DNA from: Actinomycetes bacterium
Lineage (GTDB): Bacteria; Actinomycetota; Acidimicrobiia; Acidimicrobiales; Aldehydirespiratoraceae
Assembly (NCBI GenBank): GCA_024276495.1
Contig: JAJRXC010000090.1
Span: 1-57,329, forward strand
Reading direction: 5' to 3'
DNA: 57,329 nucleotides
Below are positions 12,736 to 53,911 of the stretch, one piece after another. Made by a program: the position numbers and the translations under genes. Within the stretch, counting starts at the first letter, position 1; each line of letters starts with the position of its first letter. Below the pieces are notes generated by a model. It saw only the letters and a program-made list of their open reading frames with translations, was not told where the DNA came from and ran no database searches.

Positions 12736-13830
12736 CTACTTCAGGAAGGACGGGACGTCGAAGTCGTCGTCGCCGAGGTCGAGATCGTCGCCGTCGTCGG
12801 CGAACACGTCGGCGATCGGAACCTCGCCCGTCGGTTCGCCGCTGTCGCCCCGGGAGACCGGTGCCGCGGCGCGCGGCGCATCGTCCCACCGATCGAAGCC
12901 AGCGGCGATGACCGTGACCCTGACGTCGTCGCCCATCTCGTCGTCGATGACCGCGCCGAAGATGATGTTGGCGTCTTGGTGGGCGACCGCGTGGATGATC
13001 TCGGCGGCCTCGTTGACCTCGAGCAGGCCGAGGTCGGGCCCACCGCTGATGTTGAGGAGGATGCCGCGGGCGTTCTCGATCGACGCTTCGAGCAGCGGGC
13101 TCGAGATGGCCGCCCTCGCCGCCGCGACCGCCCGACCCTCGCCGGTTCCCTGGCCGATGCCCATGAGGGCGCTTCCCGCGTCGGTCATCACGGTCCGCAC
13201 GTCGGCGAAGTCGGTGTTGATCAGACCGGGAGTGGTGATGAGGCTCGTGATCCCCTGCACCCCCTGGAGAAGGATCTCGTCGGCCATCTTGAACGCGTTG
13301 AGCACCGAGGTGTTGTCGTCGGCCACGGTCAACAGCCGGTCGTTGGGAATGACGATGAGGGTGTCGACCTTCTCCTTGAGCTTCTGGATGCCCTGCTCGG
13401 CCTGGACGGAGCGGCGTCGTCCCTCGAAGGCGAACGGCCGGGTGACCACACCGATGGTGAGCGCGCCCTCGGACTTCGCGATCTCGGCGATCACCGGCGC
13501 GGCACCGGTGCCGGTGCCGCCGCCCTTTCCGGCGGTGATGAAGACCATGTCGGCGCCGCGCAGCGCCTCGCGAACCTCGTCGAGATGCTCCTCTGCCGCC
13601 TGGCGGCCGATCTCGGGATCGCTGCCGGCGCCGAGCCCGCGCGTGAGGTCGCGGCCGATGTCGAGCTTCTCGTCCGCGTCGCTCATCAGCAGCGCCTGGG
13701 CGTCGGTGTTGGCGGCGATGAACTCGACACCCTTCAGGCCGGCGTCGATCATCCGGTTGACGGCGTTGACGCCGCCACCACCGACGCCGATGACCTTGAT
13801 GACGGCCAGATAGTTCTGCGGATCAGACAT
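12736..13830 (-). CDS. ftsZ: Cell division GTPase FtsZ
   Basis: 364 residues. The tubulin signature G-G-G-T-G-T-G (residues 103-109), the N-T-D-F-A-D T7 loop and the C-terminal domain are intact. The tail ends [11 protein letters not shown], the short conserved peptide that binds SepF and FtsW. FtsZ forms the cytokinetic ring. It follows ftsQ after a 125-base leader, the only real gap in this part of the cluster, so ftsZ likely has extra transcription or translational control. GAGGA lies about ten bases before the ATG. Confidence 0.98.
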
Positions 13831-13955
13831 CGATTGTTAATCCTCGGTGAGAGAGAGCGGAAGAAGAACCGGCCGCCGCACGCTGCACGTGCGAATCAAG
13901 GTTTGACGGTATACGAGCCCATGTCCACTTTGGCGGACGCTGACCGGCCGTCGCC
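13831..13955 (-). promoter_or_regulatory. ftsQ-ftsZ spacer, probable ftsZ leader/promoter region
   Basis: In a cluster that otherwise has no spacers, this 125-base gap stands out. On the minus strand it holds TATACCGT (a possible -10, containing the TANNNT string TACCGT) and a 6-bp hairpin CGCACG/CGTGCG at 13877-13893 with loop TGCAG, then a pyrimidine-rich stretch and the FtsZ ribosome-binding site. No good -35 is visible. Confidence 0.35.
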
Positions 13956-14783
13956 TCAATCCACATGGGGTGTCTCGGTGCTCGTCGCCTCGGCTTCGCA
14001 TGCCGGATCCCGCGTGACCGTGGTCAGGTCGGCGACCGCGACGTCGATGACCTCGATGCACGTCAGCACCGCACCTTCGAGAATGGCCCGGACCGCGGCG
14101 AGCTTGTCGTCGATCAGGTCGACCGATCCGAGCTCGACCTCGGCCGTCCCGATCAGGTCCAGCCCGACCATCGGCCCGCCGGGCGCGTCGGCATCGACGG
14201 TGACCGCCTCGATCCAGACCCGCAGATCCTCGGGGATCGCCATGGCGACCGCGACGCCGGGAAGGGCGTCCGTCTCGACCTCCCCGAGCGGCACGGAGGC
14301 GGCGAGGGCGAGCAGCGGAAGTGTCGTGTCGGACGGAGCCGACCCGATCCGCACGCCTTGGGCGTCGACGAGGCCGAGGCCCCCTCCGGTGGTTCCCAGC
14401 ACCGCGACCGCCTCCCGTTCGGCGACGGTGAGCCGAACGGTTCCCGGCCAGTCGCGGCGGACCTCCGCCCGGGCGACCCATGGAAGGTCGAGGATCGCCG
14501 ATTCGACCTCGGCCGGGTCGAGATCGAACAACGGTGTCCCCGCTTCGAGCGCCGCCGCGGCCTCGATCTCCGCGATCCGGTCGGCCGACAGCTCGGCGGA
14601 CCCCTCGCCCGCGATTCGTACGTGGTCGAGGTCGAGAAGCGGAGACCGGGTCACGCCCCATGCCGCCACCGTCACGACGACGATCCCGACGATGGAGAGC
14701 AGGACCCGGAGACGGCGACGCCCCTCGGCCCGCCGAACCGCCACCCGCCGGGCCCGAAGGCGCGGATCGATGCCGATGGCCAT
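13956..14783 (-). CDS. ftsQ: Cell division protein FtsQ
   Basis: 275 residues with the bitopic layout of FtsQ/DivIB: a basic cytoplasmic start (R-L-R-A-R-R-V-A-V-R-R-A-E-G), one transmembrane segment (about residues 27-47), a POTRA domain (D-L-D-H-V-R-I-A-G onward, then P-L-F-D-L-D) and the FtsQ beta domain (W-V-A-R-A-E-V-R-R-D-W-P, V-A-E-R-E-A-V-A). It links the ring to the FtsL/FtsB and FtsWI synthase. I chose the ATG at 14783, whose A is also the last base of the murB stop (TGATG). Confidence 0.92.
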   Translation of the reverse strand: MAIGIDPRLRARRVAVRRAEGRRRLRVLLSIVGIVVVTVAAWGVTRSPLLDLDHVRIAGEGSAELSADRIAEIEAAAALEAGTPLFDLDPAEVESAILDLPWVARAEVRRDWPGTVRLTVAEREAVAVLGTTGGGLGLVDAQGVRIGSAPSDTTLPLLALAASVPLGEVETDALPGVAVAMAIPEDLRVWIEAVTVDADAPGGPMVGLDLIGTAEVELGSVDLIDDKLAAVRAILEGAVLTCIEVIDVAVADLTTVTRDPACEAEATSTETPHVD

Positions 14784-15724
14784 CACGTCGCCTTCTCCGG
14801 GGGGAACCCGATCATGACCGTCTCCGCGTGGAGGTCGACGCCGTGGGTCTGCGCGACGAGACGCCGCACCTCGTCCATCACCCGCCGGACGTCGGCGGCC
14901 CGTCCACCCGGGTCGACCTGGATGAAGTTGGCGTGCTTCGTCGAGACCTCGGCGGATCCGATGCGCAGGCCGGCCAGTCCCGCCGTGTCGATCAGCCGAC
15001 CCGCGCTGTCGCCGGCCGGGTTGGTGAAGACCGATCCGGCGTTGGGCCCGCCGGGCTGGTGTTCGCGTCGCCATTGCACGATCTCCGCGATCTCGGCCCG
15101 CCCGGCCTCGGGATCGCCCGGGGTGAGCGAGAGGCGGACCGAGAGAACCAGATCGGAGGCCGCGAGCGCCGAGGTGCGGTAGCCGAGGTCGAGCTCGTGG
15201 GCGGGGCGGCGACGAACGGTTCCCGCCCGGAGATCCAGCACGCGGATGTCGAGAAGCGAGTCGCGCATGTCGGACCCGTGGCCGCCGGCGTTCATCCGGA
15301 CCGCGCCACCGATCGATCCCGGCACTCCCACCGCCCACTCGAATCCGGTGAGACCGGCGGCGACCGTCGTGCGGGCGACGACGGGCAGCTTCGCCGCGGC
15401 ACCGGCGGTGACGGTCGTCGAGTCGATGTCGATCGTGGCGAACCCCGTTCCGAGCGTCACGGCGATGCCGTCGAACCCGTCGTCGCTCACCAACAGGTTG
15501 CTGCCCATGCCGATCACCACGACATCGACGGGACAGCCGGCCAGGACGTCGGCCAGCACCCGGGCGTCTTCTGGTCGGTCCAGCACGACGAGCGCGGCGG
15601 CGGGGCCGCCCACGCGATAGGTGGTGAGCGGACCCAGCGGCGCGCCACGCTGCACCCGCGCGGCCAGCGGGCCCCGTTCGAGCGCATCGATCGCGACCGC
15701 GAGATGATCGACCATGACCGTCAC
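14783..15724 (-). CDS. murB: UDP-N-acetylenolpyruvoylglucosamine reductase
   Basis: A 313-residue FAD enzyme that reduces UDP-GlcNAc-enolpyruvate to UDP-MurNAc. Visible are T-T-Y-R-V-G-G-P-A-A, the FAD loop G-M-G-S-N-L-L-V-S-D, G-V-P-G-S-I-G-G-A-V-R-M-N-A-G, the catalytic Ser in A-G-S-V-F-T-N-P, and the final Glu in L-H-A-E-T-V-M-I-G. Lacking the extra insertion, it looks like a type II enzyme. Either the GTG at 15724 (overlapping the murC stop as GTGA) or the ATG at 15715 could start it; I chose the GTG because other junctions here have the same form. Confidence 0.95.
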   Translation of the reverse strand: MTVMVDHLAVAIDALERGPLAARVQRGAPLGPLTTYRVGGPAAALVVLDRPEDARVLADVLAGCPVDVVVIGMGSNLLVSDDGFDGIAVTLGTGFATIDIDSTTVTAGAAAKLPVVARTTVAAGLTGFEWAVGVPGSIGGAVRMNAGGHGSDMRDSLLDIRVLDLRAGTVRRRPAHELDLGYRTSALAASDLVLSVRLSLTPGDPEAGRAEIAEIVQWRREHQPGGPNAGSVFTNPAGDSAGRLIDTAGLAGLRIGSAEVSTKHANFIQVDPGGRAADVRRVMDEVRRLVAQTHGVDLHAETVMIGFPPEKAT

Positions 15725-17097
15725 GAGACCGCGCGGAGCCGGTCGATGACGGTGTCGGGCACCGCGGTGAGGTCGCCGGCCCCGAGGGTGAGGCAGAGAT
15801 CGCCGGTGTGCAGTCGTGAGGTCAACCATCCCTCGACGTCGTCGAGGCGCGGCAGGTAGGCGACCTCGCGCCACGGGCGCGCGTCGAGGACGGCATCGAC
15901 GAGGAGCTTCCCGCTCACCCCGGGCCGGGGGGTCTCACCGGCGGCGTAGATGTCGGTGATCACGAGCTGGTCCACCTGGTCGAAGGCGTCGGCGAAGTCT
16001 CGCCAGAGCGCCTCCGTGCGGCTGTAGCGATGGGGCTGGAACACGCACACGACCCGGTTCCAGTCGCCGTCTCGGGCGGCTCCCACGGCCGCCTCGACCT
16101 CGGCGGGCAGGTGGGCGTAGTCGTCGACGAACACGACCCCGTTGGCTTCTCCCCGGAACTCGAACCGACGGGCCACCCCGCCGAAACGGCCGAGCGCTCT
16201 GACCGCGGCATCGATCGGTGCGCCGAGCAGGAGACCGGTGACGGCTGCCGCCGCCGCGTTGCGGGCGTTGTGCAGCCCCGGGGTGGGAAGTTCGATCCGG
16301 CCGAGGATCTCGTCGGCGTGACACAACGAGAACGACACGGACGAACGTCGTCGCTCGATGTCGGTCATCTGATAGTCGGCGCCGGCCGAGGTGCCGTAGG
16401 TGACGCGTCGGTCTCCGCCGGCGAGCGCCGCCGACCCGGGGTCGTCGGCGCACGCGACCGTGAGCTTCGCGGCGCCGGCGAACTCCTCGAACGCGGCTCG
16501 CAGCGCGGCCGGGTCGTTCCCGTAGGTCTCGAGATGATCCGGTTCGACGTTGGTGACCACCGCTACCTCCGCCCCGAGGGCGAGGAAGGTGCGGTCGGAC
16601 TCGTCGGCTTCGATCACGAACCATTCGCCCTCGTCCCAGACCGCGCCCGAACCGATCTCGTTCACGTCGCCACCGATGATGAACGAGGGGCGCAGGTCGG
16701 CCTCGGCGAGCACGAGCGACAGCATCGACGCGGTGGTGGTCTTGCCGTGGGTGCCGGCCACCGCGACCGTGCGTCGTGCCGCGGCGATGGCGGGCAAGAT
16801 GTCGGCCCGGCGCAAGATGTCGAGCCCCGCGTCCTCGGCCGCACGCACCTCGGGGTTCCGTGCGGGGACGGCCGTGGAGATCGCGATCATCTCCGCGTCG
16901 CCGAGATTCGCGGCGTCGTGACCGATCGTCACGGTGATCCCGGCGGCTCGGAGTCGCTCCGCGACGGGGCCGTCCTTGAGGTCCGAACCCGTGACCTCGT
17001 GGCCCATGCGATGGAGAACCGACGCGATCGCGCCCATTCCCGCGCCGGCTGCGCCGACGACGTGGATGCGACGGGGAGTGCTGAGGTCGGGTTTCAT
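15721..17097 (-). CDS. murC: UDP-N-acetylmuramate-L-alanine ligase
   Basis: 458 residues in three Mur-ligase domains: an N-terminal Rossmann part (V-V-G-A-A-G-A-G-M-G-A), the ATP loop A-G-T-H-G-K-T-T-T (residues 114-122), and the C-terminal domain with F-Q-P-H-R-Y-S-R-T, typical of MurC. It adds L-Ala to UDP-MurNAc, the first step of stem peptide assembly. The start overlaps the murG stop (ATGA) and the stop overlaps the murB GTG. Confidence 0.97.
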   Translation of the reverse strand: MKPDLSTPRRIHVVGAAGAGMGAIASVLHRMGHEVTGSDLKDGPVAERLRAAGITVTIGHDAANLGDAEMIAISTAVPARNPEVRAAEDAGLDILRRADILPAIAAARRTVAVAGTHGKTTTASMLSLVLAEADLRPSFIIGGDVNEIGSGAVWDEGEWFVIEADESDRTFLALGAEVAVVTNVEPDHLETYGNDPAALRAAFEEFAGAAKLTVACADDPGSAALAGGDRRVTYGTSAGADYQMTDIERRRSSVSFSLCHADEILGRIELPTPGLHNARNAAAAAVTGLLLGAPIDAAVRALGRFGGVARRFEFRGEANGVVFVDDYAHLPAEVEAAVGAARDGDWNRVVCVFQPHRYSRTEALWRDFADAFDQVDQLVITDIYAAGETPRPGVSGKLLVDAVLDARPWREVAYLPRLDDVEGWLTSRLHTGDLCLTLGAGDLTAVPDTVIDRLRAVS

Positions 17098-18245
17098 CTC
17101 GTTCTCCGCTCCTGGTGGGGACGACGGGCATGGGACTCGACGAGGTCGACGATCGCGGCGGGTGCGTCGGGGCGGCCGAACGAGGCGGCGCCGGCCGCCA
17201 TCTTCTCGCGACGATCGTGATCGGCCAGCAACTCGTCGACCACGAGCCGCAGCCGATCGCCGTCGAGCTCCGGGTCGGGCACGACCACCGCGGCGTCGAC
17301 CTCGGCGAGCGCACGGGCGTTGGCCGTCTGGTGATCTCCGGGGGCGCCCGGCAGCGGGACGAGCACCGAGGGGAGCCCGACCACGGCGAGCTCGGCGACC
17401 GTGTTCCCTCCGGCCCGGCAGACGGCGAGGTCGACGGCGGCGTAGACCGAGGCCATGTCGTCTTCATAGCGCACGAGGCGGTAGTCGAGCACCGCGTCCG
17501 GGGCCAGGGGGATCCGCTCGGCGAGGTCGTCGTGGTCGCGGGCGCCGGCGATGTGATGAATCGTCAGGTCGTCGCGTCCGGCCCATCGGGGCAGCGCGGC
17601 GAGAAGCGCCTCGTTGATCCGGCGTGCCCCCAGCGAGCCACCCATCACGACCACGGCGCACGAGTCGGCGTCGATGCCCATCGCCGCTCTGGCCGCCGCC
17701 CGCCCGCCGACCCGGTCGACCGCGGCGATCTCCGGACGCACCGGGTTCCCCGTCCACACGGCGTTGGGCAGCGACGATCCGGGAAACGGGACGGCGCACG
17801 CGCCGGCGAATCTCGCGGCGAGGCGATTCGCGGCGGACGGCACGGCGTTCTGTTCGGTCAGGACGATCGGAACTCTCCACACGATCGCGGCCACGACGCC
17901 GGGTACCGACGCGTAGCCCCCGAGCGCCACCAGCACCGCAGGGCGATGGCGGGCGAACCGGGCGATGGCGCGGACGATGGCGACCATGAGTCCGGTGACG
18001 GCCGCGACGTTGGCCACGGCCAGCCGACGTTGGATGCCCCGGCCTTGGAGGGCGAGAAGTGAGAAGCCGGCCTCGGGAACCAGCCGGGTCTCGAGGCCGC
18101 GGGAGCTCCCGATCCAGGTGACGGACGGGCGCGGCACACCCCGGCGCACCATCTCCTCGGCGACGGCCAGCCCGGGTGAGACATGACCCGCGGTTCCTCC
18201 TCCGGCGATCACCGCCCACACGACGGACCGGCCCATGTCGTTCAC
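17094..18245 (-). CDS. murG: UDP-GlcNAc:lipid I GlcNAc transferase MurG
   Basis: A 383-residue GT28 glycosyltransferase that makes lipid II from lipid I on the inner membrane face. Diagnostic are the glycine loop G-G-G-T-A-G-H-V-S-P-G-L-A, V-A-L-G-G-Y-A-S-V-P, E-Q-N-A-V-P, G-G-S-L-G-A-R-R-I-N and the C-terminal C-R-A-G-G-N-T-V-A-E-L. I chose the GTG at 18245, overlapping the ftsW stop as GTGA; the ATG at 18236 three codons later is the alternative. It overlaps murC at its 3' end. Confidence 0.96.
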   Translation of the reverse strand: MNDMGRSVVWAVIAGGGTAGHVSPGLAVAEEMVRRGVPRPSVTWIGSSRGLETRLVPEAGFSLLALQGRGIQRRLAVANVAAVTGLMVAIVRAIARFARHRPAVLVALGGYASVPGVVAAIVWRVPIVLTEQNAVPSAANRLAARFAGACAVPFPGSSLPNAVWTGNPVRPEIAAVDRVGGRAAARAAMGIDADSCAVVVMGGSLGARRINEALLAALPRWAGRDDLTIHHIAGARDHDDLAERIPLAPDAVLDYRLVRYEDDMASVYAAVDLAVCRAGGNTVAELAVVGLPSVLVPLPGAPGDHQTANARALAEVDAAVVVPDPELDGDRLRLVVDELLADHDRREKMAAGAASFGRPDAPAAIVDLVESHARRPHQERRTR

Positions 18246-19444
18246 CGGCCCTGACGGGCGATGTTGAGCACCACTCCCACGGCCGCCATCGTGACGACGA
18301 GGGAGGTGCCACCGAACGACAGGAACGGCAAGGTGACGCCGACGACCGGCACCAGCTTGGTGACCGAACCGATGTTGACGAACGCCTGCACGACGACCCA
18401 GGTGGTGATCCCGAGGGCGAGCAGCATGCCGAAACGGTCCGGCGCCCGGAGGGCGGCGACCGCGCCGGCGACCCCGACGATCAGGAAGAGGATCACCACG
18501 AACCCCGCACCGAGCAGACCGAGCTCCTCGGCGATGATGGCGAAGATGAAGTCGGAGTGGGCGAACGGGAGGAATCCCCATTTCGCCTTGCTCGCGCCCA
18601 GACCCACTCCCGTCAGGCCGCCGACGGTGATGGCGTGGAGCGACTGCAACGACTGGTAGCCGAGGAAGTCGGGGTCGATCCACGGGTCGAGGAACACCCG
18701 GAAGCGCTGTCGACGCCACGCCGTGCCGAGGATCGCGGCCGCGGTGCCGAGCGTGCCGAGCGCGGCGAGGCCGGTCATGTGGAGCAGAGGGGCTCCGGCG
18801 ATGAAGAGCATCACCATCACCGCCGCGGCCATGATCACCGCGTTGCCGAGGTGCGGCTGGGCCATCAACAACACGACGAAGAGGCCGGTGACCGCGACCA
18901 CGGGCCGGACGGTCGCGCGCGTGTTCTTCATCTCCCGACCCGGACGGCTCAAGATGTCGGCGGTGAACAGGACCAAGGCGAGCTTGGCGATCTCCGACGG
19001 CTGGAACGAGAACGGTCCGAGCCGGATCCAGCGAGTCGCCCCGTTAGCGTCCACCCCGAACCCCGGCAGGAGCAGGACGAGCAACAGGACCAGCGAGCCG
19101 ACGACGGCCGGGGTGGCGAAGATCCGCAGTCGTCGGTAGTCGATGCGCATCGTCACGAGGAGCACGGCGGTCCCCACGCCGGTCCACATCACCTGGCGCC
19201 GGAACAGGCTCCACGCGCTGTCGGACCGGTTGATGCTCACCACCGCGGAGGCCGAGAGCGTCATCACCACTCCCAGCAACACGAGCGCCGTGATCGCGAG
19301 GAACAGGACGAGGAACGGACCGGTTCGTCGACCCACCGGCCGCTTCGGGCCGCGGCCGTCGGGTTTGACCCGCGCCGTCGGATGACGAACCCGGGCCGAT
19401 TGGATCCGGTCCCGGCGTGGGCGGCGATTCTCGGTCGCCGTCAT
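18242..19444 (-). CDS. ftsW: SEDS glycosyltransferase FtsW
   Basis: 400 residues. After a basic cytoplasmic tail of about 40 residues come roughly ten membrane segments with the SEDS signatures N-G-A-T-R-W-I-R-L-G-P-F-S-F-Q-P-S-E-I-A-K and P-F-L-S-F-G-G-T-S. FtsW polymerises lipid II glycan at the septum together with FtsI. Its place between murD and murG, with ATGA overlap at the murD end and GTGA at the murG end, supports FtsW rather than RodA. Confidence 0.95.
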   Translation of the reverse strand: MTATENRRPRRDRIQSARVRHPTARVKPDGRGPKRPVGRRTGPFLVLFLAITALVLLGVVMTLSASAVVSINRSDSAWSLFRRQVMWTGVGTAVLLVTMRIDYRRLRIFATPAVVGSLVLLLVLLLPGFGVDANGATRWIRLGPFSFQPSEIAKLALVLFTADILSRPGREMKNTRATVRPVVAVTGLFVVLLMAQPHLGNAVIMAAAVMVMLFIAGAPLLHMTGLAALGTLGTAAAILGTAWRRQRFRVFLDPWIDPDFLGYQSLQSLHAITVGGLTGVGLGASKAKWGFLPFAHSDFIFAIIAEELGLLGAGFVVILFLIVGVAGAVAALRAPDRFGMLLALGITTWVVVQAFVNIGSVTKLVPVVGVTLPFLSFGGTSLVVTMAAVGVVLNIARQGR

Positions 19445-20787
19445 GATGAGCCGCCAAGAGCACGGACCGAGCGGGCGAAGTCGTCGCCACGCTCGCGATA
19501 GTCGCGGTACCAGTCGAACGAGGCGCAGGCCGGGCTGAGCAGCACCACCCGACCCCCCGCGGCGTACGCCCGGGCGGTGGCGACCGCCGCGTCCATGTCA
19601 GCGGCACGACTGACCGGATGGGTTGGCTCGAAGACCGCGGCGACCTCGTCGGCCGCGTCGCCGATCGCGACGACGGCGTGGATGTGGTCGCCGGCCTGGG
19701 CCAACACGCCGAGGTCGACTCCCTTGTTGCGACCACCGGCGATCAACACGACCGACTCGAAGCCGCGAAGGGCGGCCAGCGTGGCGTGGGGGGTCGTCGA
19801 TTTCGAGTCGTCGTAGAACATCGAGCCATCGATCTCGGCCACCGGGCTGACCCGATGCGGCAGGCCCGCGAACGTCTCCGCGGTCGCGGCGACCGCGTCG
19901 AGATTGGCACCGATGGCCGTGACCGTGGCGGCGACGGCGAGGAGATCCTCGACGTCGTGCGGCAGGGATCGCCACATGCGGTCGGTCGTGAGGAACGGGC
20001 CGTCGGGTCCGGACAGCTTGTCGCCCTCGACTCGCCAATCGGCCGACGGCCCGCCGAAGGTGACCACCGTCCGGTCGGTCGGAACGTGACGCATCACGAC
20101 CGGGTCCAGCGCGTTGGCCACCGCGGTTCCGCCGGGACCGATCGACGAGAAGATCTTCGCCTTCGCCCTCTCGTAGGCCTCGAGGTCAGGGTGGATGTCG
20201 AGATGGTCCGGAGCGAAGTTGAGCCACGTGCCGACGCGGGGTTCGAAGTCGCGCACGCGGGCCAGCCGAAACGACGATGCCTCGACCACGAACACCTCGG
20301 TCGTGGGGTCGTCGATCGCGACGACGAGGGGTACGTCGGTGTTGCCGGCCGCGACCGCGTCGATGCCGGCACGGGTCAGCGCGTCGACCGACATCTCGAC
20401 GACGGTCGTCTTGCCGTTGGTGCCGGTGACCGCGGCGATCGGCCGCCGATCCCATGCCGCGGCGAGATCGAGCTCGCTGACGACCGCGCACCCGGTCTCG
20501 TCGGCTGCCGCGAACGCCACGTGCTGTTCGGGCAGACCCGGCGCGGGAACGACGAAGTCCGCGGCCGCGACGAGCCGGGCCGTGTCGGCCCCGGTGGGCC
20601 CTTCGACCAACTCGACACCGAGGTCTTCGGCCGCGCCCCGCAGAAGCTCGTCGGGATGGTCGTCGACCGCGGTCACCTGGTGTCCCCGACGCGCCAACGC
20701 GCCGGCCACCGCTCGGTTGGTCACACCCATGCCGACGAGCAGCGCCCGCCTCGGTCCGGCCCGCAGTGTCTCCGCGAACGTCGACAT
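19441..20787 (-). CDS. murD: UDP-N-acetylmuramoyl-L-alanine-D-glutamate ligase
   Basis: 448 residues. The N-terminal Rossmann domain (L-L-V-G-M-G-V-T-N-R-A-V-A) is followed by the ATP loop T-G-T-N-G-K-T-T (121-128), the Mur-ligase centre (E-A-S-S-F-R-L, N-F-A-P-D-H-L-D-I-H) and the C-terminal D-D-S-K-S-T-T-P-H-A. It adds D-Glu to UDP-MurNAc-L-Ala. The start codon ATG at 20787 shares its A with the mraY stop (TGATG), and the end overlaps ftsW. Confidence 0.97.
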   Translation of the reverse strand: MSTFAETLRAGPRRALLVGMGVTNRAVAGALARRGHQVTAVDDHPDELLRGAAEDLGVELVEGPTGADTARLVAAADFVVPAPGLPEQHVAFAAADETGCAVVSELDLAAAWDRRPIAAVTGTNGKTTVVEMSVDALTRAGIDAVAAGNTDVPLVVAIDDPTTEVFVVEASSFRLARVRDFEPRVGTWLNFAPDHLDIHPDLEAYERAKAKIFSSIGPGGTAVANALDPVVMRHVPTDRTVVTFGGPSADWRVEGDKLSGPDGPFLTTDRMWRSLPHDVEDLLAVAATVTAIGANLDAVAATAETFAGLPHRVSPVAEIDGSMFYDDSKSTTPHATLAALRGFESVVLIAGGRNKGVDLGVLAQAGDHIHAVVAIGDAADEVAAVFEPTHPVSRAADMDAAVATARAYAAGGRVVLLSPACASFDWYRDYRERGDDFARSVRALGGSS

Positions 20788-21821
20788 CAGGCGGTGATCC
20801 CTTCCCTGATCGCGTCGGCGTAGAACAAGCCCAGGCCGACGGCGGTGCACAGACCCGACATGATCCACAACCGGATGAGGATGGTCGTCTCGGGCCAACC
20901 GCAGAGCTCGAAGTGGTGGTGGACCGGCGCCATGCGGAACAGACGGCGCCCGCCGAAACGGCGAAAGACGATGACCTGGAGGATCACCGAGACCGTTTCG
21001 ATGACGAACAGCCCGCCGATGATCGGCAACAGCAGTTGCGTCTGGGTGGCCAACGACAACGCGGCCAGCCCGCTGCCGATCGCGAGGGAACCCGTGTCGC
21101 CCATGAAGATCTGCGCCGGCGGCGCGTTCCACCAGAGGAAACCGATGATGCCACCGACCATCGCGGCGGAGATCACCGCGAGGTCCAACGACGCGGGGTT
21201 GTCGTAGGCGGCCGGGTTGCGGAACTGCCAGAAGCCGATGAACGTGAACGCGGTGAATCCGAGCGCCGCGGCGCCGGCGGCCAGCCCGTCGAGACCGTCG
21301 GTGAGGTTGACCGAGTTCGTCATGCCCACGATCAACAACACGGCCCACAACATCCAGAGCACCCGACCCAGCTCCCATCCCGGGTAGGCGAAGCGGGTGA
21401 ACGACAGCGTCGTGTGGACCTCGGTGAACTGGGTCATCAAGAACGCGAAGCCGGCGGCGACGACGAGCTGGCCGAGCAGCTTCGCCCGCTTGCTGAGGCC
21501 CAGGTTGCGGGCCGCGACGACCTTGATCCAGTCGTCCATGAGGCCGACGACGCCACCGCCGATGATGGCGAGCACGACGAAGATCCCGCGGGTCGTGTAG
21601 ATGCCGCCGAAGACGTCGGAGACGACATAGCCCGAGACGACACCGAGCACCAGGGCGAGACCTCCCATCGTCGGCGTTCCCGCCTTGAGGTGGTGACCCT
21701 CGGGTCCGTCGTCGCGGATGGGTTGACCGATCCCGTGTTCGGTCAGCCAGTTGATCAGCGCCTTGGTGCCGAACAGGGAGACCATCATGGAGATCGCCGC
21801 GGCGATCAGGAGCCGCGTCAC
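20787..21821 (-). CDS. mraY: Phospho-N-acetylmuramoyl-pentapeptide transferase
   Basis: A 344-residue polytopic enzyme (about ten membrane segments) that couples UDP-MurNAc-pentapeptide to undecaprenyl phosphate, giving lipid I. Family hallmarks include H-L-K-A-G-T-P-T-M-G-G, D-D-W-I-K, N-S-V-N-L-T-D-G-L-D-G-L-A, F-M-G-D-T-G-S-L-A-I-G and the cytoplasmic H-H-H-F-E. The start overlaps the murE stop by ATGA. In most relatives murF separates these two genes; here there is no room for it. Confidence 0.97.
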   Translation of the reverse strand: MTRLLIAAAISMMVSLFGTKALINWLTEHGIGQPIRDDGPEGHHLKAGTPTMGGLALVLGVVSGYVVSDVFGGIYTTRGIFVVLAIIGGGVVGLMDDWIKVVAARNLGLSKRAKLLGQLVVAAGFAFLMTQFTEVHTTLSFTRFAYPGWELGRVLWMLWAVLLIVGMTNSVNLTDGLDGLAAGAAALGFTAFTFIGFWQFRNPAAYDNPASLDLAVISAAMVGGIIGFLWWNAPPAQIFMGDTGSLAIGSGLAALSLATQTQLLLPIIGGLFVIETVSVILQVIVFRRFGGRRLFRMAPVHHHFELCGWPETTILIRLWIMSGLCTAVGLGLFYADAIREGITA

Positions 21822-23221
21822 GACGCGCCCCCGAGCCGACGGAGCTCGTCACGAGCGACGTCGCGGTCGTCGAACTCGACGACCACGGAGCCGATGGTCT
21901 GGGTGGATTCATGGCCTTTTCCGGCGATCAGCACGACATCACCCTTGCGTGCGCCGGCCAGCGCGTGGCGGATCGCGGCGCGACGGTCGGGTTCGACCAG
22001 CTCCGGAGGGTTGGTCATACCGGAGACGATGCCCGCGATGATGGCGTCGGGTGGCTCACCCCTCGGGTTGTCGCTGGTCACCACCACCCGGTCCGCGAGC
22101 CGCTCGGCCACCTCCCCCATCCGGGGTCGTTTGGTCCGGTCACGGTCACCGCCGGCGCCGAACACGAGCACCAACGACCGGTCGGTGACGGCCCGGGCGG
22201 CGGCGAGCACCGTCTCGAGCCCGTCGGGCGTGTGGGCGTAGTCCACGAGAACGGTGAAGGGTTGGCCTTCGTCGATCGTCTCGAACCGTCCGGGCACATG
22301 GGGGGCGACGGCCAACGCCGCCGCGATCGCCGCCGGTTCGTGGCCGAGGCCGTGAACGATCTCCGCGGCGAGCACGGCGTTGGCGACGTTGAAGGTGCCG
22401 GCCAGGGGAAGGTCGACGGTCTGACCTCGCCACGAGAACCGACTGCGGTGGGTTCCGGTCTCGACCCCCCGGAGGTGGTCCTCGGTGATGCGTTCCACCG
22501 CCATGTCGACGGAGTCGGCGAGTCGGGCGCCGAAGGGGCCCCGGGTGTCGATCACCGCGAGGTCGGCGAACGTCGCGGTGAACAGGCGTCGCTTCGCCGC
22601 GAAGTAGTTCTCGATGGTGCCGTGGTGGTCGAGGTGGTCGATTCCGAGGTTGGTGAAGGCCACGACCCGAAACCTCGTCCCGTCCACCCGTCGCTGTTCG
22701 AGCGCGTGCGACGAGACCTCCATCGCCACCGACGGTTGCCCGTCACGGCGGGCCTTGGCGAGGATTCGCTGGAGGTCCGTCGCCTCCGGCGTCGTTCGGG
22801 TCCCGGTGAGGGTTCCGATCTCGTGAACGCCCACGCCGAGCTCGCCCATGATCCCGGCGACGAGCCGCACGGTCGTCGTCTTGCCGTTGGTCCCGGTCAC
22901 ACCGACGACGTCGAGGGATCGGCTCGGGTCGCCGTGGACGAGCGAGGCGACGGGTCCCATCGCGGCGCGAACCGACGGAACGATCAGTTCGGGGACACCC
23001 AGTTCGAGCGGACGCTCCGCCAGCACGGCGACGGCTCCGGCCTCCACGGCGTGGTGGGCGTGGTCGTGGCCGTCCGCGTTGGCCCCCGCGACACAGCAGA
23101 ACAACGTCGCGGGTCCGACCCGGCGGGAGTCGTGTTCGACGTCTTCGATCCGGAGGGCGGCGGAGGTCGACGTGACCTTCAGCCCGAGACGTTCGCCCAC
23201 CGCGTCGAGCCGCGCCGTCAT
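21818..23221 (-). CDS. murE: UDP-MurNAc-tripeptide synthetase MurE, meso-diaminopimelate type
   Basis: 467 residues. The ATP loop is T-G-T-N-G-K-T-T-T (residues 109-117), the substrate loop includes E-V-S-S-H-A-L, and near residue 384 stands S-D-N-P-R, the motif that recognises meso-diaminopimelate (Lys-type MurE lacks it). It therefore predicts a DAP-containing wall. The ATG at 23221 overlaps the ftsI stop (ATGA), and the gene runs directly into mraY. It is a single full-length MurE; no MurF part is fused to it. Confidence 0.97.
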   Translation of the reverse strand: MTARLDAVGERLGLKVTSTSAALRIEDVEHDSRRVGPATLFCCVAGANADGHDHAHHAVEAGAVAVLAERPLELGVPELIVPSVRAAMGPVASLVHGDPSRSLDVVGVTGTNGKTTTVRLVAGIMGELGVGVHEIGTLTGTRTTPEATDLQRILAKARRDGQPSVAMEVSSHALEQRRVDGTRFRVVAFTNLGIDHLDHHGTIENYFAAKRRLFTATFADLAVIDTRGPFGARLADSVDMAVERITEDHLRGVETGTHRSRFSWRGQTVDLPLAGTFNVANAVLAAEIVHGLGHEPAAIAAALAVAPHVPGRFETIDEGQPFTVLVDYAHTPDGLETVLAAARAVTDRSLVLVFGAGGDRDRTKRPRMGEVAERLADRVVVTSDNPRGEPPDAIIAGIVSGMTNPPELVEPDRRAAIRHALAGARKGDVVLIAGKGHESTQTIGSVVVEFDDRDVARDELRRLGGAS

Positions 23222-25140
23222 GTCGCCACTGGGTCGGGATCCGGCTCCGGCACGGTGGTGACGGGAACCGCGGCTGCGGCCCGGACCCGTTCGTCGGCGC
23301 GAACCGCGTCGGAGAGCGGCGCGATCCGGAGCTGGCCCACCGCGTAGCTCGCCACCTCGGCGAACAGCGGCGCGGCGAGTTGGCCGCCGCCGGTGCGATC
23401 CCCCTGCGGGTTGTCGATCACGACGATGATGGTCAACGCCGGTCCGTTGTCGTTCTCCACGATGCCGCCGAAGCTGGCGGTGATCGCCCGTGAGCCGTCG
23501 GCGCACAGGTAGCCGACTCCACCGGCACAGGGCTGCCACGCGGTGCCCGTCTTCCCGGCGACGTCGTAGCCGGGAAGGGCCCCGGCCCGACCGGTACCGT
23601 CGACCACGACCTGCTTCATCATGGCGATGACGCGGTCGGCGGTCTCCTCGGACAGGACGCGCACCGGTGCTCGACTGCCGATGTCGTCCATGACCACGAC
23701 GGGATCGAACCGGAGCCCACCGGCCGCCAACGTCGAGAACACCTGGAACATCTGGATCGGTGAGACGGCGACGCCTTGACCGATCGCCGCGTTCGACAGC
23801 TTCAAGGCGTTGGCGTCGAGCGGGTCGAGGATGCCGCTGGCCTCACCGGAGACGCCGAGCGTGGTGGGCTCCCCGAGCCCGAAGTCGCGCATCGTCTCGT
23901 AGAGCGCGTCGGCGCCGACGGCCTGCGCCATCGTGATCGTGCCGTTGTTCGAGGACTTGCGCAGGACCCAGCTCGGGGTCCGGGCCGCGCCCTCCGGCGG
24001 CACGTTTCGGTCGACGTAGCGATGGGGGGCGACGTCGGCGCCGAGATCGATCCGGAGCTCCTGTGGGATGTCGAACGCGGCGCTCGGCGACATGGCGCCG
24101 TTCTCGAAGACCGACGAGAAGGTGATGGGCTTCATGATCGACCCGGGTTCGTAGGTCCAGGTGGCCGCCAGGTTGGTGGTGGTGCATCCGACCTCACCCG
24201 TGTCGAGGTCTCGGACCACGTTGGCCATCGCGAGGATCTCGCCGGTTCGCGGGTCGCCGACGATGACCATGCCGCGGTCCGCCTGGGCCTCCTCGACGGC
24301 GCGGATGGGGAGTTGTTCGGTCTTGAACTGGATGTTGCGGTCGATCGTCAGCGTGAGATCCTCGCCGGGCTCCATCGGCTCGATGATCCGGAATCCGCCG
24401 GGGATTCGCACGTCGCCGCCGGCCTGGGTCTGTCGAACACCCTCTCCCGGGGTTCCGGTGAGCCGGTCGTCGAACTCGAGCTCGAGCCCGCTCACACCGA
24501 CCTGGTCGGCGTCGACGCGCCCGACGAGGGCGAGGCCCGAGCAGTCCCCGTTCGGGTGCTCACGCCGCTGTTCCTCGTCGATGTAGATGCCGGGAAGGTC
24601 GAGGGCGAGGACCGCCTCACCCACTTCGGGATCGACCTGGCGTTCGAGATAGACGAAGGCCCGGTCGCGGCCGAGTCGTTCCTGCAGAACCTCGGGTGGG
24701 GTCGACAGCACCGCGGCGAGCTCGTCGACCGCGGCACCCAGGAGATCGGCGTCGGGCTCGGCCCGGTCGGCCGACTGGAGGATGCGGGGGTTGGCGACGA
24801 TCGACGGGCGGGGCAGCGAGAGGGCGATCGAGCGTCCGAACCGGTCGAGGATCTGGCCGCGTGGCGCCGCGATCGTCTGGCTCCGGATCTGGCTGCCGAT
24901 CGCGCTGGCCAGCTCTTCATCCGGGGTGAGCTGGAGATCCACCAGGCGCCAACCGAAGCCGGCACCCATGGAGGCCAGCGCGAGCAGGAGCACCGCGACG
25001 CGTGCGCGACTGACCGGCGGACGGGCGGCGATGACCTTCTTCGACGTTCTCGAGCCGGGCTTCGTGGCGCGACTTCGTCGGCCGTGGGTGGTGGTGGCGC
25101 GGGTTCGGGAGGTACGGGGGCGACGGGGGGGAGAAGTCAC
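23218..25140 (-). CDS. ftsI: Class B penicillin-binding protein, septal transpeptidase FtsI/PBP3
   Basis: 640 residues: a basic cytoplasmic N-terminus, one membrane anchor (A-R-V-A-V-L-L-L-A-L-A-S-M-G-A-G-F), a dimerisation/pedestal region and the transpeptidase domain with S-I-M-K (Ser near 334), S-S-N (near 396) and K-T-G (near 529). There are no PASTA repeats. It crosslinks septal peptidoglycan with FtsW. I chose the GTG at 25140, forming GTGA with the ftsL stop; frames further upstream read through ftsL in another phase. It overlaps murE at the 3' end. Confidence 0.95.
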   Translation of the reverse strand: MTSPPRRPRTSRTRATTTHGRRSRATKPGSRTSKKVIAARPPVSRARVAVLLLALASMGAGFGWRLVDLQLTPDEELASAIGSQIRSQTIAAPRGQILDRFGRSIALSLPRPSIVANPRILQSADRAEPDADLLGAAVDELAAVLSTPPEVLQERLGRDRAFVYLERQVDPEVGEAVLALDLPGIYIDEEQRREHPNGDCSGLALVGRVDADQVGVSGLELEFDDRLTGTPGEGVRQTQAGGDVRIPGGFRIIEPMEPGEDLTLTIDRNIQFKTEQLPIRAVEEAQADRGMVIVGDPRTGEILAMANVVRDLDTGEVGCTTTNLAATWTYEPGSIMKPITFSSVFENGAMSPSAAFDIPQELRIDLGADVAPHRYVDRNVPPEGAARTPSWVLRKSSNNGTITMAQAVGADALYETMRDFGLGEPTTLGVSGEASGILDPLDANALKLSNAAIGQGVAVSPIQMFQVFSTLAAGGLRFDPVVVMDDIGSRAPVRVLSEETADRVIAMMKQVVVDGTGRAGALPGYDVAGKTGTAWQPCAGGVGYLCADGSRAITASFGGIVENDNGPALTIIVVIDNPQGDRTGGGQLAAPLFAEVASYAVGQLRIAPLSDAVRADERVRAAAAVPVTTVPEPDPDPVAT

Positions 25141-25556
25141 CCGGCCGCACCTCCCGCGAACGGATCCGGGCGCTCGGGGGGTGTGAGTTGTCCCGGAGGC
25201 ACCGGCGTGAGGATGACCAGGTCCGGGGCCGGGACGTAGCCGGCCGCCAGGGCGGTGGTCTCGACGCCGACCGCCGACTCGGACCAGGCCCGGTCCGCGA
25301 GCGTGTTCACCCGGAGCTCCTCGAGCGCGGCGATGTCGCTGTTGACGTCGTCGAGCTCCGACTGGGTCTGGACGACCACGGCGTGGAGCCCGGCCAGGGC
25401 GAACAGGACGAGGAAGAAGAACCCGGCCACACCGGTCCCGATCGCCCCGACGGTGCGGACCCGATCGGCGGGTCCGACGACTCGGAGCTGGGCCTTTTTC
25501 GGCGCAGGGGCGGGAGCGACTCGCCGAGCGGGGCGGGCCGACGGGTTCGGAGCCAT
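25137..25556 (-). CDS. ftsL: FtsL-like division protein
   Basis: A 139-residue bitopic protein: a Pro/Ala/Arg-rich cytoplasmic tail, one membrane segment (V-A-G-F-F-F-L-V-L-F-A-L-A-G-L), then a short coiled-coil-like stretch (Q-T-Q-S-E-L-D-D-V-N-S-D-I-A-A-L-E-E-L) and a Pro-rich end. Sequence identity to FtsL is always low; size, topology and position between rsmH and ftsI identify it. It should activate FtsWI in complex with FtsB/FtsQ. The ATG at 25556 shares a base with the rsmH stop (TGATG). Confidence 0.85.
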   Translation of the reverse strand: MAPNPSARPARRVAPAPAPKKAQLRVVGPADRVRTVGAIGTGVAGFFFLVLFALAGLHAVVVQTQSELDDVNSDIAALEELRVNTLADRAWSESAVGVETTALAAGYVPAPDLVILTPVPPGQLTPPERPDPFAGGAAG

Positions 25557-26572
25557 CACGCGGCCGCCAGTTTCTCCACGGCCCGGAAGCGGGCGGATTC
25601 GGCTCGGGGGTTGCGGGAGATCTCGGCCGGCGACGGTGTACGGGCCCCTCGCCACAGGAGCCGGACCTCGGCGTGGTAGCCGGGTGGGGGCGGCAGATCG
25701 GGACGAGGAGGGGGCGCCTCGCCGGCGGCATCCCGGAACCGCCGTTTGACGATCCGGTCCTCACCGGAGTGGTAGGCGAGCACCGCACACCGGCCCCGCG
25801 GCGCGAGAAGGGCGAGGGCCTGCGACAGGGCGTCGTCGAGTATCTCGAGCTCCTGGTTGACCTCGATCCGCAGCGCCTGAAAGGTGCGGCGGGCGGGATG
25901 ACCGCCCCTTCGGCGGGCCGCGGCGGGGACCGCGGCACGGACGATGTCGGCGAGCTCGGCGGTCGAGTGGATCGGGCGGGCCGCGACGATGGCCCGGGCG
26001 ATGCGTCGCGCGTGGGGTTCGTCGCCGTTGCGGCGCACGATCGCGGCGAGCGACGCTTCGTCGAGGCCGTTGACGAGGTCGGCGGCCGTGTCGGGGCTCT
26101 GCCGGTCCATTCTCATGTCGAGCGGACCGTCGTTGCGAAAGCTGAAGCCTCGTTCGGCGAGATCGAGCTGCGGCGAGCTGACGCCGAGGTCGAAGAGGCA
26201 GCCGGCGAGCTCGGCGATCCCGAGGGAGTCGACGACGTCGGCGAGGTCGTCGAATCGCCGATGGCGCAGAGTGACCCGGTCGCCATGGGGAGCGAGCCGG
26301 GCCTCTGCGGCATCGAGGGCCATGCGGTCCTGGTCCAGGCCGACGAGGGAGATGCGGTCGTTCGCGCCCAGCAGCGCCGCCGCGTGGCCGGCCCCTCCCA
26401 GGGTGGCGTCGACCACGACGCCGTCGGGCACGTCGGCCAGGACCTCGACGACCTCGGAGAGCATCACCGGCTCGTGGACGAACCGCGCATCACTGCTCTC
26501 GGTGTTGTCCGTGTCGGTCATCTCGGGATCGCCAGGACGGTCGGGTCGGCTCCGAAGAGCCGACTCGGTCAT
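25556..26572 (-). CDS. rsmH: 16S rRNA m4C1402 methyltransferase RsmH (MraW)
   Basis: A 338-residue SAM-dependent enzyme modifying C1402 in the ribosomal P site. Motifs: H-E-P-V-M-L-S-E-V, D-A-T-L-G-G-A-G-H, F-D-L-G-V-S-S-P-Q-L-D, R-G-F-S-F-R-N-D-G-P-L-D-M-R-M-D, R-R-T-F-Q-A-L-R-I-E-V-N-E-L and Y-H-S-G-E-D-R-I-V-K. The ATG at 26572 is supported by GGGAG seven bases upstream; an in-frame ATG at 26521 is an alternative. The start region lies inside a long inverted repeat that could repress translation. ftsL overlaps the 3' end. Confidence 0.96.
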   Translation of the reverse strand: MTESALRSRPDRPGDPEMTDTDNTESSDARFVHEPVMLSEVVEVLADVPDGVVVDATLGGAGHAAALLGANDRISLVGLDQDRMALDAAEARLAPHGDRVTLRHRRFDDLADVVDSLGIAELAGCLFDLGVSSPQLDLAERGFSFRNDGPLDMRMDRQSPDTAADLVNGLDEASLAAIVRRNGDEPHARRIARAIVAARPIHSTAELADIVRAAVPAAARRRGGHPARRTFQALRIEVNQELEILDDALSQALALLAPRGRCAVLAYHSGEDRIVKRRFRDAAGEAPPPRPDLPPPPGYHAEVRLLWRGARTPSPAEISRNPRAESARFRAVEKLAAA

Positions 26573-26680
26573 CTGCAGTCTCCCGACCGACGGCGTCCGC
26601 CGGGATTTCTCCCCGGTCGAACTAATGGCAAGCGGGCGGAGTACGGGTCTTCCATTTGTCGGTCGGAAGACTGCAGATGA
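26569..26680 (-). promoter_or_regulatory. Structured leader of rsmH: 23-bp hairpin enclosing the RBS and start codon
   Basis: Bases 26569-26591 and 26658-26680 are reverse complements apart from one position (26582/26667). In the minus-strand transcript that position becomes a G-U wobble, so the mRNA stem is unbroken over 23 pairs; in a plus-strand RNA it would be a C-A mismatch. The rsmH-proximal arm contains the GGGAG ribosome-binding site and the AUG. The 66-base loop holds further pairings (TCCGCC with GGCGGA; CCGGG with CCCGG). A conserved mraW leader RNA motif has been described in actinobacteria; whether this belongs to it needs a covariance search. The whole mraZ-rsmH spacer is 186 bases. 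Confidence 0.6.
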
Positions 26681-26758
26681 TCGAGTCGTGAGATCAGACC
26701 GTGGGGTCCGGCATGCTCCTCTCGAGTCGGTGGGCGAGTGGGGAATCGGGGGAGAACA

Positions 26759-27196
26759 TCAGCGGGGACCGAGTCCGTGGCCTCGCTCGATGGCATCGGC
26801 CAACTTCTCGGAGCCGACGGGCGAGACGTCGTTCCAGCGTTGCGGGTCCCAGACCTCGATGCGGCGGAGCATGCCGATCACGATCACGGAGCGATCGAGG
26901 CCGGCCATCTCGCGCAGGTGCGGCAGGAGGCGCACTCGGCCCTGGGAGTCGGGCACGATCTGATCGGCTTTGCTCGCGAAGGCTCGCAGGGCGTTCACAT
27001 CGACGTCGCCGGTGGAGACCTGGTGTTCGAGGGAATCGGCCATCCGGTCGAACTCGTCGGCCGGAAGGATCGCGAGGCAGTGGTCGAGCGGGGTGACGAA
27101 CGCCCCTTCGGCCAGCTTGGCCCGAAAGGCCGCGGGGAGGATGAGGCGACCCTTGTCGTCGAGTGTGTGTTCGAAGCTGCCGACGAAGCTCGCCAT
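26759..27196 (-). CDS. mraZ: Transcriptional regulator MraZ
   Basis: 145 residues made of two SpoVT/AbrB-type beta-barrel halves: F-E-H-T-L-D-D-K-G-R-L-I-L-P-A-A-F-R at residues 7-24 and D-S-Q-G-R-V-R-L-L-P-H-L-R in the second half. MraZ forms rings and binds direct repeats in its own promoter, repressing the division cluster. A fitting operator lies upstream. I chose the ATG at 27196, which has AAAGGGGG just before it and matches the family N-terminus M-A-S-F-V-G; the longer frame to 27289 runs through the promoter. Confidence 0.96.
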   Translation of the reverse strand: MASFVGSFEHTLDDKGRLILPAAFRAKLAEGAFVTPLDHCLAILPADEFDRMADSLEHQVSTGDVDVNALRAFASKADQIVPDSQGRVRLLPHLREMAGLDRSVIVIGMLRRIEVWDPQRWNDVSPVGSEKLADAIERGHGLGPR

Positions 27197-27205
27197 TCGG
27201 ATCCC

Positions 27206-27265
27206 CCTTTCCCCTCGATTCTCCCTGGACCTCCATAGCCCTCCACTATACTCCCTTCCCGCCCA
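27206..27265 (-). promoter_or_regulatory. Probable MraZ operator: tandem 10-bp-spaced KGGAG repeats
   Basis: On the minus strand four units start exactly ten bases apart: GGGAG (27251-27255), TGGAG (27241-27245), TGGAG (27231-27235) and GGGAG (27221-27225). Looser copies flank them (TGGGC at 27261-27265, AGGGG at 27211-27215). One-turn spacing of G-rich direct repeats is how MraZ operators look in other bacteria. The array covers the -10 element, the start point and the leader. Confidence 0.6.
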
Positions 27266-27274
27266 CAAACGCAA
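27245..27274 (-). promoter_or_regulatory. mraZ promoter
   Basis: On the minus strand -35 TTGCGT (27269-27274), an 18-base spacer and -10 TATAGT (27245-27250) make the best sigma-70-like promoter in the window. Transcription would start near 27237, giving a leader of about 40 bases. The -35 lies within an inverted repeat AAACGC/GCGTTT (27267-27280), a possible further operator. Confidence 0.6.
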
Positions 27275-27299: not shown

Positions 27300-27313
27300 C
27301 GAACGCACGTTCG
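27300..27313. promoter_or_regulatory. LexA-type SOS box upstream of mraZ
   Basis: CGAACGCACGTTCG is a perfect palindromic match to the Gram-positive/actinobacterial LexA consensus CGAAC-N4-GTTCG. It lies 25 bases upstream of the mraZ -35 and 41 bases beyond the lipoate-ligase-like stop. Read on the minus strand it is the same 14-mer as the box at 53898-53911. Confidence 0.5.
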
Positions 27314-27354: not shown

Positions 27355-28020
27355 TCAGGCGTCGCGAAGCGCAGCGGCGAACGCCGAGCCGATGTCTCGA
27401 TCACCGACGACCGCGACGACCGATTCCCACTCGTGGTGCGCCGCCCGGGCCTCGGGGTCGGCGAGCAGGGCGGACACCGCGTCGGCGTCCCATCGGCGAT
27501 GCACGAGGCACTGGAACCGGGCCCAGTCGCGGGTGCGGCGCTGACTCACGCCCACCAACTTGCGACCCCCGGATGACACCTCACCGGGTCCGAGCCCGAC
27601 GAAGCACACCGTCGACGACCAACGGGTCCGCACCAGGCCTCCGCGGTGCACGGTCAGGTCGGGCATGCCGACCGCCCCGAGGGCGTCGACCCACACGTCG
27701 CCCAACCAGTCGGCGGCGCGAATCACGTCGGTGTCCCACCAGCGGCATCCGGCGGGCACCCACACGTCGATCCACACGTGCTCGCCGGGAACCAACAGCA
27801 CCGCCCCTCCCCCGCTGTGACGACGCACGACCCGCACCCCCACCGCGGCCGCCCGGGCGCGGTCGACGGCCGCGGCCGTCTGGGCGCTTCCCATGACGAG
27901 CGACGGCTCTTCCACCTCGAGGAGCCAGGCCGTCGGCCGAGACTCGCTCGGCGGCGCCGTGTCGTGCAACATGTCGGCCGGGCCGCGACGGTGATCCCAC
28001 AGCCACGTGGCCTCGTTCAC
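27355..28020 (-). CDS. Lipoate-protein ligase A-like protein
   Basis: 221 residues of the biotin/lipoate ligase fold. V-V-R-R-H-S-G-G-G-A-V-L-L-V-P-G is the lipoyl-AMP binding motif (family R-R-x-S-G-G-G-A-V), and G-R-K-L-V-G-V-S-Q-R-R carries the conserved lysine. It should attach lipoate or octanoate to carrier domains, but it lacks the C-terminal accessory domain of E. coli LplA, so it may be a transferase or salvage variant. GTG start at 28020 overlaps the HNH gene stop as GTGA. Confidence 0.82.
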   Translation of the reverse strand: MNEATWLWDHRRGPADMLHDTAPPSESRPTAWLLEVEEPSLVMGSAQTAAAVDRARAAAVGVRVVRRHSGGGAVLLVPGEHVWIDVWVPAGCRWWDTDVIRAADWLGDVWVDALGAVGMPDLTVHRGGLVRTRWSSTVCFVGLGPGEVSSGGRKLVGVSQRRTRDWARFQCLVHRRWDADAVSALLADPEARAAHHEWESVVAVVGDRDIGSAFAAALRDA

Positions 28021-53890: not shown

Positions 53891-53911
53891 TTGACGACGA
53901 ACGTGCGTTCG
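53891..53911 (+). promoter_or_regulatory. -35-like element plus LexA-type SOS box before the exonuclease-UvrC gene
   Basis: TTGACG (53891-53896) is followed at once by CGAACGTGCGTTCG (53898-53911), a perfect CGAAC-N4-GTTCG palindrome. A weak -10 (CACGCT, 53914-53919) lies 17 bases after the -35 and six before the ATG, so a bound repressor would cover the promoter. Confidence 0.6.

Follow-up and report, generated by a model that had tools for sequence, protein, structure and literature searches.

SulA, DivS, YneA and SosA are SOS division inhibitors, each a dedicated inhibitor protein. The locus described here would share with them a link between DNA damage and division that runs through LexA, but whereas those systems reach division by way of an inhibitor, the target here would be the promoter of the division and wall cluster together with its regulator, MraZ. 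A LexA box before mraZ has a direct precedent. In gut Gram-positive bacteria, Cornish et al. 2014 named MraZ (COG2001) as a candidate SOS member, and their gel shift showed purified B. subtilis LexA binding to one mraZ site (PMC3998124). The link is therefore less new than an earlier note on this DNA implied. As far as its available text goes, that work rests on metagenome data filtered to Firmicutes or Actinobacteria, uses a heterologous LexA and gives no promoter anatomy. Our analysis instead concerns genomes of Acidimicrobiales and other Actinomycetota, a conserved box position and an adjoining array of 10-bp repeats. PMC3998124 alone reported a LexA-mraZ link among the matches examined, which lay largely outside the subscription literature, and no title on such a link appeared among the matches listed for LexA in Acidimicrobi*.

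In Streptomyces venezuelae the SOS box is tCGAAC-N4-GNNCGa (PMC9380542), equal in half-sites and spacing to the box studied here. The main text of that LexA ChIP-seq study contains 0 occurrences of mraZ and 0 of dcw, and Streptomyces is described by its authors, in the part available, as having no clear homologs of known SOS division inhibitors. In Mycoplasma genitalium the cluster is repressed by its own MraZ, and the paper on this cites the same for E. coli (PMC8475190). What our locus has in common with the MraZ boxes of E. coli and Mollicutes described there is direct repeats at the mraZ promoter and, presumably, repression of the MraZ cluster by its own product; it differs in the LexA box that lies upstream of the repeats.

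The window, meaning the whole stretch of 57,329 nucleotides that was analysed, carries the following features at the mraZ promoter:

27300-27313, no strand assigned: LexA-type box (SOS box), perfect CGAAC-N4-GTTCG, called from sequence, relatives and matrix score
27269-27274, minus strand: -35-like element TTGCGT of the mraZ promoter, called from sequence; TTGCxx is kept in relatives
27245-27250, minus strand: -10-like element TATAGT of the mraZ promoter, called from sequence; TAxxxT is kept in relatives
27203-27266, minus strand: GG-rich repeats with a 10-bp period, probable MraZ operator, covering the spacer and the -10 and running into the leader; limits set by eye
26762-27196, minus strand: mraZ coding region, start at 27196, stop codon at 26759-26761 (PF02381, E 1.2e-24)
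27355-28020, minus strand: LplA-type gene, upstream of and co-directional with mraZ (PF21948, E 6.8e-14)

The 14-mer at 27300-27313 reads CGAACGCACGTTCG on the plus strand and CGAACGTGCGTTCG on the mraZ strand (27313 to 27300). It lies 103 bp from the mraZ start codon, and its end is 25 bp upstream of the -35, exactly as the earlier note had placed it. A strict sigma-70 scan did not return the mraZ promoter, because TTGCGT shares only 3/6 positions with TTGACA. The call, with an 18 bp spacer between TTGCGT and TATAGT, was accepted because the arrangement TTGCxx-17/18-TAxxxT is conserved among relatives. The mraZ product matches TIGR00242 at E 1.3e-25 and 90.1 bits, under the cut-off of 98.35. 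Perfect 14-mers number 3 in the window against a mean of 0.23 in shuffles, of which 1/100 reached 3.

The earlier note had also made mraZ the only gene served by the box, and for the home genome this holds: since the LplA-type gene ends 41 bp before the box, and a scan of the window found no minus-strand ORF of at least 20 codons wholly between box and mraZ, mraZ is the sole gene that the box is placed to serve. A hidden SOS-induced small protein in this interval was rejected on the same ground, there being no suitable ORF in the window. No LexA-controlled dedicated small inhibitor of the SulA, YneA or DivS type was found, and the first gene after the box is mraZ.

A predicted hairpin overlaps the box 41 bp after the LplA-type stop, and the palindrome might on that account be read as a terminator of the LplA-type gene. 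The chance of this seems vanishingly small. At least as good a fold was obtained with 184/200 shuffles, no terminator-like site (GC-rich hairpin plus T run) was found, and in the loci examined in a second family, f18, the LplA-type gene points away from the box; the terminator was rejected on these three counts. The neighbour is divergent in 5/5 scanned f18 loci, and in a third family, f28, it is co-directional in two of three and divergent in one. Because it is divergent in f18, the box there could serve the LplA-type gene too. As a regulatory site for that gene in the home genome the box is a misfit, the gene ending before it.

The home genome (G000; 4.33 Mb, 111 contigs) has a single PF01726 match, which is LexA (TIGR00498, 218.1 bits). 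PF00717 is also present, so that both domains are encoded, and the Ala-Gly site and the Ser/Lys self-cleavage residues are visible in the translation. Its lexA gene has two boxes upstream. The mraZ box shares their motif, though its score is on the weak side. A genome scan and a look at the lexA promoter had been proposed as a check, and they answer the objection that lexA of this organism might use another motif: it carries the same one. Perfect CGAAC-N4-GTTCG occurs at 47 sites in G000, against 1 for the reversed pattern. The boxes precede recA, uvrA, two genes for uvrD-type helicases and genes for a DnaE-type polymerase, imuA' and an IMS polymerase; others stand before a 2OG-Fe(II) oxygenase gene, several DUF222 genes and an exonuclease-UvrC gene, which is within the window:

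53898-53911, no strand assigned: LexA-type box, same 14-mer as the mraZ box, 14 bp before the exonuclease-UvrC start
53931-53944, no strand assigned: second perfect LexA-type box, starting 5 bases into the exonuclease-UvrC gene
53926-55692, plus strand: DEDD exonuclease-UvrC fusion gene (NF005907, E 3e-164)

The identity of the site at 53898-53911 with the mraZ box as read on the mraZ strand, also put forward earlier, was reproduced. The two exonuclease-UvrC boxes are 33 bp apart, and the product matches TIGR00194 (uvrC) over residues 221-446, under the cut-off.

With gene calls from a crude codon-score script and a hand tally of location against centre, the 47 sites fall into two classes. An R-N-N-Y centre (purine first and pyrimidine fourth of the N4) is present in 27/47, and 25/27 of these lie at predicted gene starts; the other 20/47 are all inside ORFs (Fisher p 2.4e-11 for location versus centre). 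The mraZ box, with its centre GTGC, has the R-N-N-Y form. By hand tally, 18/25 start-associated sites lie within ~30 bp of the predicted start; the mraZ box is upstream of the -35 instead. In the home family, boxes were found within 250 bp upstream of lexA at 28/30 loci examined, with none at G024 and G029, and the R-N-N-Y centre recurs in 19/20 distinct family lexA boxes and in 35/44 distinct f18 lexA boxes. G024, with no box within 250 bp of lexA, does have a box before mraZ.

Several other placements were observed in passing. Contig C99 carries perfect boxes at L037 1501-1514 and L038 1501-1514, ~12.6 kb apart, the former 28 bases into a gyrase/topoisomerase A-subunit gene, counted from its predicted start, and the latter 28 bp before a B-subunit gene, and type II topoisomerase may thus be under SOS control. 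At four DUF222 genes (L008, L019, L032 and L041), three of them with an HNH match, the box is at or within ~26 bp of the predicted start. The box at L009 1501-1514 is separated by 163 bp from the predicted gene that follows it, which has zinc-ribbon and guanylate-cyclase domains. The largest number of perfect boxes among the 51 family genomes, 57, is found in G049, with no perfect one before its mraZ.

The mraZ box scores 18.9 bits on a matrix built from all 57 distinct lexA boxes, whose lower quartile is 18.2 and median 19.8; a matrix from the 20 family lexA boxes alone gives it 18.8 bits, near their minimum of 18.5. A first matrix, which took in 30/44 f18 lexA boxes, hand-picked with few lacking R-N-N-Y, gave it 19.3. 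For recA the scores are 22.1 and 22.5 bits, and the mraZ box is a weak-side site. Close to it, at 18.5 bits, is a GCCC-centre box deep inside an ORF. At L044 1501-1514, a box 422 bases inside an unrelated ORF reached 22.5 bits on the first matrix. Because ORF-internal boxes score as high, sequence and score alone are no proof of function; what sets the mraZ box apart is conservation, not score.

We found mraZ in 50/51 home-family genomes, with a perfect box within 350 bp upstream in 24/50. By genus, the box is present in 6/6 genomes of the home genus, 4/4 of g5, 1/1 of g7, 8/9 of g9, 4/4 of g8 and 1/1 of g4, and it is absent before mraZ in g2 (0/16), g10 (0/6), g3 (0/1) and g6 (0/2); genomes of one genus are not independent. 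The conservation on which the earlier proposal depended is thus real but patchy: the box is kept before mraZ in relatives, and 26/50 family genomes lack it although LexA is present in nearly all. Loss of the box in g2 and g10 through loss of LexA was rejected, LexA being found in 49/51 family genomes (50 matches), with one g2 and one g6 genome as the misses.

Beyond the home family (f1), f18 and f28, the sample consisted of fetched genomes only, 63 in-order and 46 outside, of 376 + 144 mraZ-bearing ones. GAAC-N4-GTTC stands before mraZ in 23/35 f18 and 6/16 f28 genomes, in 0/63 genomes spread over 32 further families of the order, and in 6/46 genomes that represent 27 families outside the order (f74 3/5, f77 1/3, f97 1/1 and f73 1/5, the f73 site scoring poorly). 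Box-positive mraZ loci with public accessions are BQJV01000277.1, JAQWMR010000013.1, JAUIML010000166.1 and QIIW01000066.1. Over all regions the box is present in 59/210 (within 350 bp of mraZ), with the R-N-N-Y centre in 58/59; left out of the 210 were G445 (130 bp upstream), G444 (4 bp), G159 (180 bp) and the second mraZ copy of G037. Dinucleotide-shuffled regions gave a mean of 1.4/210 and a maximum of 5. When the half-site spacing was changed to 0-3 or 5-7, 0-5/210 regions matched, and N8 matched in 10/210, each sharing a half-site with the box.

These counts bear on whether the box is a chance match. Perfect boxes can look accidental, as do the 20/47 sites of G000 noted above and two more with the right centre that lie inside ORFs. 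Yet occurrence in nearly half of the family genomes and in further clades, at near-fixed spacing in two families and far above the shuffles, is hardly compatible with accident; the conservation and the spacing controls led us to reject chance, which we rate as barely conceivable.

LexA was found in 36/39 f18 genomes, weakly in G430, and the three misses include G432 (86% complete) and G433 (76% complete), both of which have a box before mraZ. At 24/30 lexA loci of f18, 1-4 boxes fall in the 300 bp ahead of the HTH. Six loci have none in that interval, and five of these (G441, G067, G450, G440 and G442) have an mraZ box. A relaxed last base (GTTCT, GTTCC) occurs at f18 mraZ boxes and likewise at f18 lexA boxes. 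A different regulator with the same half-sites, acting with LexA uninvolved, would account for the two f18 genomes that have a box and gave no LexA match, incomplete as they are, and for the frequent G beside the half-site in mraZ boxes (GTGC, GCGC), a position usually taken by A in the lexA boxes of the family. However, lexA's own boxes include the G..C type as well (GCTC, GCCC), as does the exonuclease-UvrC promoter, the relaxed f18 base is common to mraZ and lexA, and a survey restricted to LexA-type HTH domains found one in G000. We consider such a regulator very unlikely.

Spacing between box and -35 is near-fixed within two families, with promoter elements in relatives placed by a scoring script. 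In the home family it is 24-26 bp in 20/24 genomes, and 36, 37, 46 and 46 bp in the other four, all from the home genus; two of these, G001 and G004, carry a further box, an imperfect one, at a distance of 61 bp. The f18 spacing is 41-43 bp in 21/23 genomes and 32 and 52 bp in the other two. Because the values are 25, 36/37 and 46 bp in one family and 32, 42 and 52 bp in the other, the box appears to shift by approximately whole helical turns, a pattern that comes from six departing genomes. Part of the extra DNA in the home genus resembles, by eye, added GTGGAG-type repeat units. The phase differs between the families (~25 bp in the home family vs ~42 bp in f18), and spacing is loose elsewhere: 26, 37, 37, 70 and 70 bp in f28, and 35, 47, 55, 58 and 62 bp in the remaining clades.

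Downstream of the box, repeats with a 10-bp period run through the promoter. In 40 distinct family promoters, GGNG pairs at 10, 20 and 30 bp number 139, 113 and 93, against shuffle values of 13.9, 11.4 and 10.1. The GGNG peak at 10 or 20 bp is missing in f18, where TGG gives 16, 17 and 18 pairs at 10, 20 and 30 bp vs ~2. TGG repeats at 10-bp intervals, and hence direct repeats, are present at the mraZ promoter in f1, f18 and f28. Judged by its pattern, the array is a probable MraZ operator, which we take to be comparable to the TGGG repeats of E. coli MraZ sites.

Because its motif is that of lexA's own boxes, and because it is conserved, stands before mraZ and keeps a near-fixed spacing within families, we read the 14-mer as a LexA operator. 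Very probably it belongs to the mraZ promoter and would be emptied on damage, changing mraZ transcription. It is a putative operator in a promoter region, conserved, patchily, before the same gene. We infer with fair confidence that LexA binds it in the cell, and control of the mraZ promoter by LexA, beside MraZ, is the most likely arrangement. In the undamaged cell, a LexA dimer would occupy the DNA ~70 bp ahead of the inferred transcription start, near the MraZ array. On DNA damage, RecA would trigger LexA self-cleavage, the site would empty and mraZ transcription would change. With mraZ at the head of the division and wall genes, such a change could act on division both via the transcript and via MraZ. 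Repression being the usual role of LexA, the most likely sign of the effect would be relief of repression with a rise in MraZ; if LexA does repress, damage would raise MraZ, which could then limit the cluster. Since the box is upstream of the -35 and not on it, occlusion would seem to matter less than contacts with RNA polymerase or MraZ as the way in which LexA modulates the promoter.

The opposite sign also deserves weighing. A position ~70 bp upstream of the start is the usual place for activators, not for occluding repressors. LexA might thus activate the promoter, or help MraZ to hold it, so that damage would lower transcription of mraZ and the division cluster. The box occupies such an activator-like position, its shifts by approximately whole helical turns within two families (six departing genomes only) would fit this, and so would the GTGGAG-type repeat seen by eye in part of the DNA inserted in the home genus. 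Treatment of C. glutamicum with ciprofloxacin is followed by a fall in mraZ mRNA (M -1.13; PMC5055667), but in the available text of that report the fall is not tied to LexA. Against activation, LexA is described as a repressor (PMC9380542, in the part available), no usable report of LexA as an activator appeared among the matches listed, and the difference in phase between the two families and the loose spacing elsewhere do not favour it. On balance we regard activation as unlikely. Quite unlikely, too, is the proposal that LexA, instead of repressing by occlusion, sits upstream as a phase-locked partner to RNA polymerase or the MraZ array, supporting the division-cluster promoter while DNA is intact, and that its destruction on damage turns the promoter down; were it true, it would amount to a checkpoint without any inhibitor protein.

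Beyond mraZ, the window carries these features:

26561-26690, minus strand: conserved structured leader of rsmH, called from covariation and a core search
25556-26572, minus strand: rsmH (mraW; PF01795, E 2.1e-100)
12736-26572, minus strand: rest of the division and wall cluster, rsmH to ftsZ, called from Pfam domains

Led by mraZ, the cluster has Pfam domains of rsmH, an FtsI-type transpeptidase, Mur ligases (their individual names inferred from gene order), FtsW, a MurG-type transferase, MurB and FtsZ. Because rsmH has its own structured leader, the reach of a mraZ-promoter effect into rsmH and later genes is less certain. In this leader, between mraZ and rsmH, the likely ribosome-binding site and start codon of rsmH are paired within a long stem (CATCTGCAGTC...GACTGCAGATG), and there are also a near-invariant core and a second hairpin. 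Of 33 distinct sequences found, 21 were aligned; pair-keeping changes on both sides were seen there at 18/43 predicted pairs, and the core was recovered with at most 3 mismatches in 21/397 genomes of the order. An mraW RNA, RF01746, is recorded for Actinomycetales (PMC2864571, in the part available). The leader is unmatched by RF01746, as Rfam searches gave no match above chance: none at the gathering score in the window, chance-level matches only in the region and none at E 0.5 in five relatives.

Set beside the published LexA-mraZ site, what is new here is a different clade, wide but patchy conservation, and a putative upstream operator at near-fixed promoter distance in two families. The spacing between box and promoter poses a direct question, namely whether LexA acts by repression, by activation or jointly with MraZ. 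The arrangement of LexA box and mraZ recurs patchily in Actinomycetota, and as a checkpoint it would follow a different design, with a LexA operator placed in the promoter at the head of the entire division and wall cluster. Through it, DNA damage probably adjusts division directly, in the home organism and in many of its relatives.
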